The notes beneath the pieces are model-generated. The model saw only the letters and a list, made by a program, of their open reading frames with translations. It was not told the origin of the DNA and did no database searches. Below are positions 26,550-30,711 of a DNA stretch of 45,710 bases, piece after piece (within the stretch, counting starts at the first letter, position 1; every line of letters begins with the position of its first letter). Source of the DNA: Acidobacteriota bacterium (lineage in GTDB: Bacteria > Acidobacteriota > Polarisedimenticolia > J045); contig RFHH01000125.1 in NCBI GenBank assembly GCA_003696075.1, positions 1 to 45,710 of the forward strand, given 5' to 3'. A program made the translations under genes and the position numbers.

Positions 26550-27431
26550 TCAGCGGCCGTCGGCCACCTCCGCCCGCGGATCGAAGAGCAGCGGTGGGAT
26601 CTCGTCGTGGATCTCCGTGCCGAAGAAGCGGTAGTCCACGTAGCGCACCGTCTTCCGGCTCACGGTGGAGCGGGCGGTCCGGCTCACCTGCCGGAAGGTG
26701 TGCAGCTCCACCTCGGTCGGGTAGGTGAACCCCTCGTGCTCGTAGCCGTACCGGACCGTGAGCTCTTTTCCGACGGGCGGGGCGGCCAGCGAGAAGCCCA
26801 GGATGCGGAACGCGGTGAGATACCGCTCGAGCTCCTTTTCCATCCTCGAATCCTGGAGATTCGGGCGCGCGGTGATCTCGATCAGGTTCCCCGTGCGGTA
26901 CTCGATCTGGGCCGTTCCCGACCACTCGGTGATCCGCCGGCCGGTCGCGACCGGGGCCGAAGAACGCCAGTGAATCGGAATCGCCAGCTTGTACGGCGTC
27001 GTGTGCCAGCTTCCGACGGCGAAACGGAGGGTGGACCGGATCGCCGGATCGAACAGCTGCGTCCAGAGGTACGGTTCGGGGAAGCCGTGCTCGGCCTCGA
27101 CCTCCCGGCGACCGGCGGAGCCGATCCGGCTGCGGAGGGCCCGGAACCCCCCGGGCTCGCGGTCGTCGCGCACGAGCAGGTACTCGACCGCGGAGCGATC
27201 CTGCGCCCCCGCTTGGTCGCCGCGATAGGAAGCGCTCCTGGTCTGCTCGATGCAGGTGAACTTGAGCGCACGCCTCCGGTAGCCGGCGCTCTTGGCTTCC
27301 AGCACCGCCACCAGCTCCTGGGGGAGGGGGCCCCAGCGATCGGGCTCCGGCGGCTCCTCCTCCGGAGCCGCGGCGGCCAGCAGCGCCGCCGCCGTCGCCG
27401 CGAGCGCGGCCGCGATCCGGCCCGGGCGCAT
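26550..27431 (-). CDS. Exported protein of unknown function
   Basis: 293 residues with a signal peptide (1-22, IAAALAATAAALLAAAAP). The mature protein is rich in beta strands and aromatic residues, with TCIEQTRSASY near its start, a central YLWTQLFDP and a C-terminal VRYVDYRFFGTEIHDEIPP. The repeated pattern of charged strands ending in YRxF is common in uncharacterised Acidobacteriota secreted proteins, but I cannot name the family. The ATG shares one base with the deaminase stop (TGATG), so it is the last gene of a three-gene operon. Confidence 0.7.
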   Translation of the reverse strand: MRPGRIAAALAATAAALLAAAAPEEEPPEPDRWGPLPQELVAVLEAKSAGYRRRALKFTCIEQTRSASYRGDQAGAQDRSAVEYLLVRDDREPGGFRALRSRIGSAGRREVEAEHGFPEPYLWTQLFDPAIRSTLRFAVGSWHTTPYKLAIPIHWRSSAPVATGRRITEWSGTAQIEYRTGNLIEITARPNLQDSRMEKELERYLTAFRILGFSLAAPPVGKELTVRYGYEHEGFTYPTEVELHTFRQVSRTARSTVSRKTVRYVDYRFFGTEIHDEIPPLLFDPRAEVADGR

Positions 27432-28459
27432 CAGTCGTTCTCGACCGAGGGTCTCGGTTCGATGAAGCTGTGTCGCGCGGCCACGCGGTAGATCTCGCGC
27501 AGGAGATCGATCCCTCGGTGCCCCGCCTCGCGGGCGAAAGCGGCGGCTTCCCGGTCGTGGTCCGTCCGGGACACGGTGGTGTTGTCGGTGCAGAGCGCGA
27601 CGGGAACGCCGTACTCCAGGAACGTGTGGATCGGGTGCCGGGCCCCGCGCGGCACCGCCCCGGTTTGGCGGTTCGATGTCGGGCAGCACTCGACGAGAAT
27701 GCGGTCCCGCGCGAGCCGGCGAAGCAGCTCCTTGTCGGCCACGGCGGCGCAGCCGTGGCCGATCCGGTCGGCGCCCAGGTCGTCGACGGCCTGCCAGATG
27801 TAGTCCGCCCCCGCCGCCTCGCCGGCATGGACCGTGAGGCCCAATCGTCCCTTCCGCGCCACGTCGAACGCTTCCCGGAACAGGCGCGGCGGATTTCCCG
27901 CTTCGGGACCGGCGATGTCGAAGCCCACCACGCCGGTGCGCTCGTGCAGGTGCTGCGCCTCGGCGAGCGCCTGCCGGGCGAGAATCTTCGCGATGTGCGG
28001 TCCATGCTGGCGCATCGCGATGACGATGAGTCCGCACCGGATCTCGGGATGCTCCTGCCGGACCCGGTTGAACCCCGACAGCACGGCCCGGATCGCCTGC
28101 CGGACCGTCAGGCCGCCGTAGGTGTGGATCAGCGGCGAATAGCGCAGCTCGAGGACCCGAACGTTGTGCCGCAGCGCGTCCCGGACGATCGCCTCGGAGA
28201 CCGCTTGGATGTTCTCGTAGAACTGCGTGATCCAGAGGGGATAGTGGAACTTGTCGAGATAGGCGAGGAGCGAGCCTTCCTCCTCTTCGCGGAGCTCGAG
28301 CCGGTCGAGCATCTCCTCGAAGGTCTCGACCGGATTCAGCTCGTGGGAGCGGAGCATCTCCCACAGGGTCCGGGGCGGGATCGAACCGTCCACGTGCTGG
28401 TGCAGCTCGACCTTCTGGAGCCGGCGGATTTCCTCCGGCACGTCCGCGGGTGCGGCCAT
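27431..28459 (-). CDS. Adenosine deaminase-family metal-dependent hydrolase
   Basis: 342 residues, a typical length. It is a TIM-barrel amidohydrolase with the zinc ligands His20 and His22 (ELHQHVDG), His211 (LTVHAGE, with catalytic Glu214), His235 (RIGHG) and Asp292. The CPTSN motif is at 269-273. In classical adenosine deaminase the metal Asp is followed by a second Asp (TDDP) that contacts the purine; here it is Asn293 (CTDN). TDN variants are known in actinobacterial members, and the superfamily includes aminodeoxyfutalosine deaminases of menaquinone synthesis, so the exact substrate is open. It starts two bases after the small Cys-rich gene and overlaps the exported-protein gene. Confidence 0.85.
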   Translation of the reverse strand: MAAPADVPEEIRRLQKVELHQHVDGSIPPRTLWEMLRSHELNPVETFEEMLDRLELREEEEGSLLAYLDKFHYPLWITQFYENIQAVSEAIVRDALRHNVRVLELRYSPLIHTYGGLTVRQAIRAVLSGFNRVRQEHPEIRCGLIVIAMRQHGPHIAKILARQALAEAQHLHERTGVVGFDIAGPEAGNPPRLFREAFDVARKGRLGLTVHAGEAAGADYIWQAVDDLGADRIGHGCAAVADKELLRRLARDRILVECCPTSNRQTGAVPRGARHPIHTFLEYGVPVALCTDNTTVSRTDHDREAAAFAREAGHRGIDLLREIYRVAARHSFIEPRPSVEND

Positions 28460-28461
28460 CG

Positions 28462-28704
28462 TCAGCGGGCGGCGCCGCGGATCCGGCGGAGGACGCGGCG
28501 GCGGGAAACGGAGAGGATCTCCGCCCAGCGCGGAGGAGGCGGCGGCGATCCGAGGACCTTGAGATTGGCGGCGCCCTGTTCGCACGCCGCGCAGTCTTCC
28601 GTCGTGCCGTACGCGTGCCGGAACGCGCAGTCCTCGAGGTTGTACCAGACGCGGAACTTCCAGCAGAAGAAGTCGTCTCTGGGCCCGCGCGCACCGCTGG
28701 TCAC
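28462..28704 (-). CDS. Small Cys-rich protein upstream of the deaminase
   Basis: 80 residues. The GTG start has GGAGA eight bases upstream. The first half carries four cysteines and two tryptophans: FFCWKFRVWYNLEDCAF, then TTEDCAACEQG. The spacing suggests a small zinc-binding or Fe-S fold. The second half has a PPPPP stretch and a basic C-terminus (RRRVLRRIRGAAR) that could bind nucleic acid. I do not recognise a family. It lies two bases from the deaminase start, so it is almost certainly co-translated with it. It is below the size many annotation pipelines trust, but the ribosome site and Cys pattern support it. Confidence 0.65.
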   Translation of the reverse strand: MTSGARGPRDDFFCWKFRVWYNLEDCAFRHAYGTTEDCAACEQGAANLKVLGSPPPPPRWAEILSVSRRRVLRRIRGAAR

Positions 28705-28801: not shown

Positions 28802-29029
28802 TCAGCCGGTCCGCGACCGGATGCGCGACAGGACGTCGGCGGTGTCCGGAAAATCCCCTTCCTCGTGCTTGCAGAAGATGCGCTCGCCGTCCACCCACAC
28901 GTCGAACACGCCTCCGCTCCCTCGCACGAGTTCCGGCTCGACCCCGAATTCGTCTTTGATCGCGGCCGCGAGACTCGCGGCCTTGGGGTAGTAGTTTCAA
29001 ACGCCGCAGTAGTCGATGCGGATGTGCAT
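28802..29029 (-). CDS. SelW/SelT/SelH (Rdx) family selenoprotein with in-frame TGA
   Basis: 75 residues if the TGA at 28997-28999 is read as selenocysteine (U11). The protein then starts MHIRIDYCGVUNYYPKAAS, continues KDEFGVEPELVRGSGGVFDV and VDGERIFCKH and ends DVLSRIRSRTG, a full-length match to the thioredoxin-fold Rdx family. The redox motif is Cys8-Gly-Val-Sec11, exactly where the family has CxxU or CxxC. The ATG has GGAGGAG about six to eight bases upstream and a TATCAT box 22 bases upstream. Directly after the TGA lies a SECIS-like hairpin (annotated separately). The reading frame is intact on both sides of the TGA. Ordinary gene finding would report only a 10-residue stub. A Cys-to-stop mutation is the alternative, but the hairpin and conserved frame argue against it. 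Confidence 0.88.
28964..28982 (-). promoter_or_regulatory. Candidate bacterial SECIS element
   Basis: On the minus strand, 14 bases after the TGA, GGCCGCG-AGTCT-CGCGGCC forms a perfect 7-bp stem with a 5-base loop. The loop contains G and U at positions 23-24 after the UGA. In the E. coli fdhF SECIS the essential loop GU lies at about positions 20-21. Position, stem and loop therefore fit SelB recognition. Confidence 0.75.
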
Positions 29030-29051
29030 GGATGTCTCCTCCGGAGGCGAG

Positions 29052-29057
29052 ATGATA
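29052..29057 (-). promoter_or_regulatory. -10 box TATCAT of the selenoprotein gene
   Basis: Minus strand reads AAGCGC-TATCAT, 22 bases before the ATG at 29029, with GGAGGAG in between. No -35 box is clear. It suggests the gene has its own promoter. Confidence 0.42.
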
Positions 29058-29425: not shown

Positions 29426-30367
29426 TCAGAGTTGCAGGGCGGGTGTGCGCCAGGCGCGGACCGCGTTGCGCCCCGAGCGCTTGGCCTCGTACATGGCCTG
29501 GTCGGCCCGGCCGAGGAGTTCCTCGGGGGTGATCAGCGCTCCCGGTTCCAGCGCGTAAGCCCCCGCGCTGATCGTGACCACGCCGAAGGGTGGATTCCCG
29601 GGGTGCGGCAGTCCGGCATCCCTCACCCGGTCCCGGAGGCGCTCGGCCACGATCAGAGCACCGTCCAGCGTCGTTTCCGGGAGCAGGCAGACGAACTCCT
29701 CCCCGCCGTACCTGAAGCAGAGATCCCCCGTCCGCACCGACTCCTTGAGAATCCGCGCCACGGCCCGCAGCGCGTCGTCACCGGCTTCATGACCCTTGGT
29801 GTCGTTGTAGGCCTTGAACCTGTCGATGTCGGCCATGATCAGGCCCAGCGGGTGGCAGAAGCGCCGGCTGTGTTCGTGAAGCCGGCGCAGAGACTCGTCG
29901 AACGCCCGCCGGTTTCCGATCCCCGTCAGCTCGTCGATCAGCGTCAGGCGTCTGAGCTGCTCGTTCCTCCGCGCCAGCTCCTCCTCGAGGCGGACCACAC
30001 GCTCTCCCGCACGAATGCGCACCATCAGCTCGTCCCTGTCGAACGGCTTGACCACGTAGTCGTCGGCACCGGCCGCCAGTCCGGCGACGACGTCCTGCTT
30101 TTCGTGCCTGGCGGTGAGGAGGATCGTGTAGATGTAGCTGCTGTCCGGCATCGCCCGGATGCGGCGGACCAACTCCAACCCGTCCATCCCGGGCATCATC
30201 CAGTCGGCGATGACGATGCGCGCGCGGTGCCGGCGGATCGCTTCCCACGCGGCGAGACCGTCCGAGGTGGCGATGACGCGATGGCCCATCTCGCGCAGCG
30301 CGCTCTCCAGAAGGCGCCGCGTCACCGGCTCGTCCTCGGCGATGAGAATGGGGAGGGGGCGGCTCAC
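29426..30367 (-). CDS. Response regulator with diguanylate cyclase (GGDEF) output
   Basis: 313 residues. The receiver domain (6-120) has acidic residues Glu11/Asp12, the phospho-acceptor Asp55 in IVIADWMMPGMDG, and Lys107 in VVKPFD. A coiled linker (125-142) leads to the GGDEF domain (about 143-305) with GGEEF at 221-225, the active form, and an RxxD inhibitory site (RTGD, 212-215) five residues before it. It should make c-di-GMP when phosphorylated and be feedback-inhibited. The GTG start overlaps the HPt gene's stop (GTGA); the layout resembles PleD/WspR-type regulators paired with a phosphotransfer protein. No sensor kinase is in the window. Confidence 0.93.
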   Translation of the reverse strand: MSRPLPILIAEDEPVTRRLLESALREMGHRVIATSDGLAAWEAIRRHRARIVIADWMMPGMDGLELVRRIRAMPDSSYIYTILLTARHEKQDVVAGLAAGADDYVVKPFDRDELMVRIRAGERVVRLEEELARRNEQLRRLTLIDELTGIGNRRAFDESLRRLHEHSRRFCHPLGLIMADIDRFKAYNDTKGHEAGDDALRAVARILKESVRTGDLCFRYGGEEFVCLLPETTLDGALIVAERLRDRVRDAGLPHPGNPPFGVVTISAGAYALEPGALITPEELLGRADQAMYEAKRSGRNAVRAWRTPALQL

Positions 30368-30711
30368 AGTTCCCCGGCGAACGCTCGGAGTCGTTCGCCC
30401 TCCTGCTCGAGGTCGGTGATGAGAGGGGCGATCCCGTCCGGCCGGCCGGATCGGGCGAACGTCTCGATCTGGAACGCCAGTTCCCGCGCCGTCCCCGCCG
30501 CAAGGGAGGCGGCGGCCCCTTTCACGGCGTGCGCGGTCCTGCGGAGCGCCTCCAGGTCCCCGCGCTCGAGGGCGGTGCGCATCTCGGCCGCCTGGCGCGG
30601 CAGGTCCGCCACGAGCATCTCCAACAATTCCTTGTAGAAGGCGCGGTCGTTGCCGGCCCGCTGGAGGCCCTCGGCCAGATCCACGGGGGCGACCGCCTGG
30701 ATGTCCGGCAT
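30364..30711 (-). CDS. Histidine phosphotransfer (HPt) protein
   Basis: 115 residues forming a helical bundle. The phospho-accepting histidine is His61 in the canonical AHAVKGAAASL motif. It starts with ATG at 30711. Such proteins shuttle phosphate between a hybrid kinase and a response regulator. The overlap with the diguanylate cyclase gene indicates that the downstream receiver Asp55 is its partner. The cognate hybrid kinase is not in the window. Confidence 0.9.
   Translation of the reverse strand: MPDIQAVAPVDLAEGLQRAGNDRAFYKELLEMLVADLPRQAAEMRTALERGDLEALRRTAHAVKGAAASLAAGTARELAFQIETFARSGRPDGIAPLITDLEQEGERLRAFAGEL

Follow-up and report, generated by a model that had tools for sequence, protein, structure and literature searches.

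Selenoprotein genes are easily misread because their selenocysteine codon, TGA, is also a stop codon. The question raised by this locus is whether a short minus-strand frame that is interrupted by one TGA encodes a complete selenoprotein. The window, which is the whole stretch of 45,710 nucleotides analysed here, is a contig of a 3.29-Mb Acidobacteriota assembly of 231 contigs that is 98.56% complete. The locus is almost certainly a gene for a small SELENOW-like (Rdx-family) selenoprotein. Comparison with homologues and known structures shows the frame, the hairpin, the machinery and the predicted fold on which this reading is based.

Reading frame and upstream signals

The gene and its immediate signals are as follows.

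28802..29029, minus strand: SelW/Rdx-family selenoprotein gene, 75 codons plus stop, recognized by profile and fold model
28997..28999, minus strand: in-frame TGA read as selenocysteine, the U of C-G-V-U, from comparison with homologues
29006..29008, minus strand: TGC codon for the partner cysteine, C8 of the CxxU motif, seen in the sequence and invariant in alignments
29036..29042, minus strand: Shine-Dalgarno sequence GGAGGAG, seen in the sequence 6 nt 5' of the ATG
29052..29057, minus strand: TATCAT hexamer, earlier proposed as a -10 box, unsupported

The frame starts at an ATG (29029-29027), ends at a TGA (28804-28802) and reads ATG ... TGC GGC GTT TGA AAC TAC ... TGA. It is interrupted by a single TGA, at the U of CxxU. 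An earlier note on this DNA, made from the letters alone, gave the coordinates of the frame and of this codon exactly. With selenocysteine at the TGA, the product is MHIRIDYCGVUNYYPKAASLAAAIKDEFGVEPELVRGSGGVFDVWVDGERIFCKHEEGDFPDTADVLSRIRSRTG (75 aa), and a Cys-Gly-Val-Sec redox motif falls at the family CxxU/CxxC site, as the note had said; C8-G-V-U11 are invariant positions in homologue alignments. Annotation under the standard code stops the protein at residue 10. Two upstream signals had also been proposed, of which the ribosome-binding sequence GGAGGAG is well placed before the ATG and the TATCAT box does not stand. The hexamer is present, but a promoter scan found no sigma-70-like pair and no -35 partner around it, and it is absent from the upstream stretches of relatives. 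It was therefore rejected as a promoter and is not evidence for the gene.

Family membership and predicted fold

Profile searches place the protein in the Rdx family. PF10262 matches at 68.3 bits (cut-off 22.6, E 7e-19), with residues 3-71 on profile positions 2-73, and NCBIfam TIGR02174 scores 52 against a cut-off of 34.2. The gene is the sole Rdx match in its genome by profile search and has one TGA inside. NF041051 SelTWH_Campy, a SelT/SelW/SelH family (seleno)protein, aligns to residues 3-70 (E 3e-21) at 75.5 bits, below its cut-off of 88, and represents a relative from a different subfamily.

An AlphaFold2 model of the window protein with 11 homologues has a pLDDT of 95.7 and a pTM of 0.85. 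It comprises a strand (residues 3-8), a loop and a helix (residues 14-28), with the CxxU motif after the first strand. Foldseek recovers a thioredoxin-like Rdx fold, with a TM score of 0.90 to the SelW-related structure 2fa8 and of 0.90-0.93 across the SelW-related crystal structures 2fa8, 2obk and 2ojl. SelW-related structures rank first, MIEN1 and mouse SelW next, and thioredoxins after; a PDB sequence search agrees. The bacterial structures 2fa8 (Agrobacterium), 2obk (Pseudomonas) and 3dex (Streptomyces) share the fold (TM 0.90-0.93) and are, as far as is known, Cys forms, whereas the window protein is the predicted Sec form. Mouse SelW (2npb) has a TM of 0.65 to the model. The proposal that the frame encodes a complete Rdx-fold protein if the TGA is selenocysteine is thus borne out by a PF10262 match over nearly the whole model and by an agreeing fold model.

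Selenocysteine machinery in the genome

Lack of the selenocysteine genes had been named as the main finding that would overturn the selenoprotein reading, and a search for selA, selB, selC and selD had been proposed. All four are present in the genome. SelB scores 328 bits (cut-off 242), selA and selD are found at E 4.3e-123 and E 3.2e-105, respectively, and the tRNA-Sec has the anticodon TCA and a foldable long variable arm. The selD gene (L030, G000:C209:4208-5134, minus strand) is itself a selenoprotein gene, with an in-frame TGA at SGG-U-AAKIGP, where SelD usually has its selenocysteine, followed by a hairpin.

The SECIS hairpin

A bacterial SECIS element, not sought in the earlier note, was found directly after the TGA, and it covaries.

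28964..28982, minus strand: bacterial SECIS hairpin GGCCGCGA-GTC-TCGCGGCC, apical loop 22 nt 3' of the TGA, supported by covariation

The hairpin has an 8-bp stem, a 3-nt loop starting with G, an A-GUC-U pattern and an MFE of -16.1. The published bSECIS model sets a distance of 16-37 nt between the UGA and the apical loop and asks for a G among the first two bases of the loop; the window hairpin agrees with every constraint of that model (PMC13188914). Members of the window's family share TGAAACTAC..CC..GGCCGCGAGTCTCGCGGCC, or a close variant, directly 3' of the TGA.

Pairing was counted with the T of the TGA as zero and bases i and 52-i tested against each other. The six core pairs are formed in 91% of cells in 97 TGA genes compared with 55% in 10 Cys genes. 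In other registers the share drops to 24-65%. For a 7-bp helix in 91 aligned TGA sequences, 87.4% of cells are paired and 58 cells are changed on both sides, compared with 13.3 after shuffling, a control that ignores relatedness, and no more than 22 after sliding, a control that does not. Under a synonymous-codon null, the paired count of the TGA genes lies far above all 500 replicates and that of the Cys genes lies within range. AGT encodes the loop serine in 43/43 cases, compared with 12/322 elsewhere in these genes. Applied to the full alignment, RNAalifold recovers only a 3-bp stem, because some lineages have lost outer pairs; the controlled count over the 7-bp helix tests the hairpin better. 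Taken alone, the window hairpin has an unexceptional energy given its codon content, with 133 of 1000 synonymous recodings matching it; the case for a SECIS element here rests on sequence comparison across homologues.

When a covariance model was trained exclusively on sequences that do not belong to the window's family, the window site scored 56.3 bits, with E 6e-14 for a search of the window, and was the best site in the genome. The second genome-wide match, at C168:8188 with 26 bits, is not preceded by a TGA within 25 bases and was dismissed as a chance hairpin. The window hairpin resembles the E. coli fdhF SECIS, which likewise follows the UGA and carries G-U in a short apical loop. It differs in that its apical loop is a few nucleotides farther from the UGA and that nothing equivalent to the bulged U was found.

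Homologues across Acidobacteriota

The gene occurs in 10 of the 12 genomes of the window's family, with a TGA inside every time, and the family proteins are 57-69% identical to the window protein. Loss of similarity past the TGA in close relatives had been proposed as a second way to refute the reading. Identity 3' of the TGA is 59-69% in these relatives, all of which have the TGA, and is about the same as on the 5' side. In a phylum sample of 396 genomes, Rdx was found in 115, with a TGA inside in 105 and a TAA or TAG in none; in the other 10, the matched stretch contains no stop. The TGA occupies the identical codon in all 97 aligned TGA-containing Rdx genes. Two otherwise matching homologues of Nitrospirota type have Cys at the Sec column (L043, CGACNYRP; L044, CGVCNYRP), so that alignment gives U or C at this position as had been anticipated. 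Most Cys-form Rdx proteins (L045-L052) belong to a distinct subfamily with CTQC-RWLLRAAW, and their genomes mostly keep SelA. A second, divergent Rdx paralogue with a CEQU motif, an in-frame TGA and a different C-terminal half occurs in two genomes (L027 in G008 and L028 in G007). Searches of mobile-element records gave no phage matches, five distant plasmid matches (<40% identical) and no PHROG family, and a phage or plasmid origin was rejected.

SelA is present in 98 of the 105 genomes with a TGA-containing Rdx gene, compared with 153 of the 291 genomes without one (Fisher p 1.6e-15, a value that overstates independence because the genomes are related). The other seven TGA-Rdx genomes lack a strong SelA; each has tRNA-Sec and/or SelB over the cut-off. 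A point against the selenoprotein reading is that two close relatives called 99-100% complete (G005 and G008) have the TGA-Rdx gene, SelB and tRNA-Sec, and SelA was absent by profile and protein search; this may reflect an assembly gap or another route to Sec-tRNA. One genome with a Cys-form Rdx (G071; 99% complete, 10 contigs) has no convincing SelA, SelB or tRNA-Sec: SelA is matched only weakly, the SelB-like matches fall well short of the cut-off, and the best match to the tRNA-Sec model scores 47.9 bits, a value like those of serine tRNAs in the window's genome.

Alternative explanations

One alternative is a broken gene, in which a Cys-type Rdx gene has been hit by a TGC-to-TGA change, either as a pseudogene or through a sequencing or assembly error. 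The assembly is fragmented (231 contigs), which would be compatible with an error. Against this, the TGA-split gene recurs in 105 genomes of the phylum from independent assemblies, never with TAA or TAG, the coding sequence past the TGA is conserved and the SECIS hairpin covaries. Because the TGA recurs at this codon in many genomes of the phylum, a pseudogene or error is refuted, and we regard its probability as negligible. A chance reading was rejected on the same recurrence, which extends to the same codon in the 97 aligned genes.

Decoding of UGA without selenium, by genome-wide or partial recoding to Trp, Gly or Cys or by simple readthrough, would also leave the frame open, whichever residue was inserted. 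It is very unlikely, because the gene itself terminates in TGA, its relatives stop at the same place with either TGA or TAG, Cys stands at the aligned position in homologues, and both the Sec machinery and a SECIS element are present, with SelA co-occurring with the TGA. The earlier claim that the organism decodes UGA as selenocysteine is supported by the complete machinery, the hairpin and this association. Pseudogenization, an error in sequencing, a changed code and chance can all be regarded as practically excluded. Selenocysteine insertion in bacteria competes with termination, and the locus might therefore yield mainly a truncated 10-residue peptide, with the UGA acting as a selenium-responsive regulatory stop and not as a route to a working enzyme. 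This is highly improbable given conservation of the part past the UGA, which is in line with a folded, functional domain.

Gene neighbourhood

Three neighbouring genes lie on the same strand.

28462..28704, minus strand: small ORF with four conserved Cys, downstream, syntenic in most family genomes
27431..28585, minus strand: adenosine deaminase gene (add), next downstream, start uncertain, with the conserved part beginning nearer 28460
29426..30400, minus strand: response regulator-GGDEF (diguanylate cyclase) gene, upstream, start approximate

The small ORF (RGPRDDFFCWKFRVWYNLEDCAFRHAYGTTEDCAACEQGAANLK...) encodes a protein of about 60 aa with four conserved Cys and an RH pair; it has no Pfam or NCBIfam match. 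At most family loci, the SelW gene is followed by this four-Cys protein and then by adenosine deaminase, and the response regulator-GGDEF gene lies upstream in 9/9 family loci examined. An Hpt-domain gene (30364-30711) precedes the response regulator-GGDEF gene. The Sec-SelW protein and the adjacent four-Cys protein might act as a fixed redox pair, beside the response regulator-diguanylate cyclase and adenosine deaminase, but we consider such a pairing unlikely.

Proposed mechanism and significance

In the selenoprotein reading, the UGA in the mRNA is followed immediately, within the coding sequence, by the bacterial SECIS hairpin, to which SelB with Sec-tRNA-Sec would bind to insert selenocysteine. 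Insertion would give a thioredoxin-like fold with Cys8-Gly-Val-Sec11 in its active-site loop, where the Sec11 selenol would most likely attack a disulfide or peroxide and Cys8 would resolve the intermediate. Motif and fold suggest that the protein is probably a small thiol/selenol oxidoreductase.

SELENOW-like CxxU proteins are among the high-confidence predicted bacterial selenoprotein families (PMC1794560, PMC13188914) and are the most abundant selenoprotein family in Global Ocean Sampling data (PMC2398784). SelW-like CxxU proteins, which the earlier note counted with SelT and SelH among the commonest bacterial selenoproteins, have long been known as such. The protein family has been known in bacteria for about twenty years and the window gene is one more example, which leaves the understanding of selenoproteins unchanged. 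Its size, fold, CxxU motif, in-frame UGA and bSECIS after the UGA are all as in other SELENOW-like bacterial selenoproteins, and it differs only in its gene neighbourhood and in its lineage, which is an Acidobacteriota family represented here by assemblies of uncultured bacteria. A literature search of partial coverage for SelW in Acidobacteriota gave a 2006 census only, which listed three selenoprotein families and four selenoproteins for Acidobacteria (PMC1794560), and no description in the lineage. Sec-type SelW genes are spread over much of a phylum that was credited with four selenoproteins in that census, and annotation can draw on roughly 100 aligned SelW genes in which an in-frame SECIS covaries.
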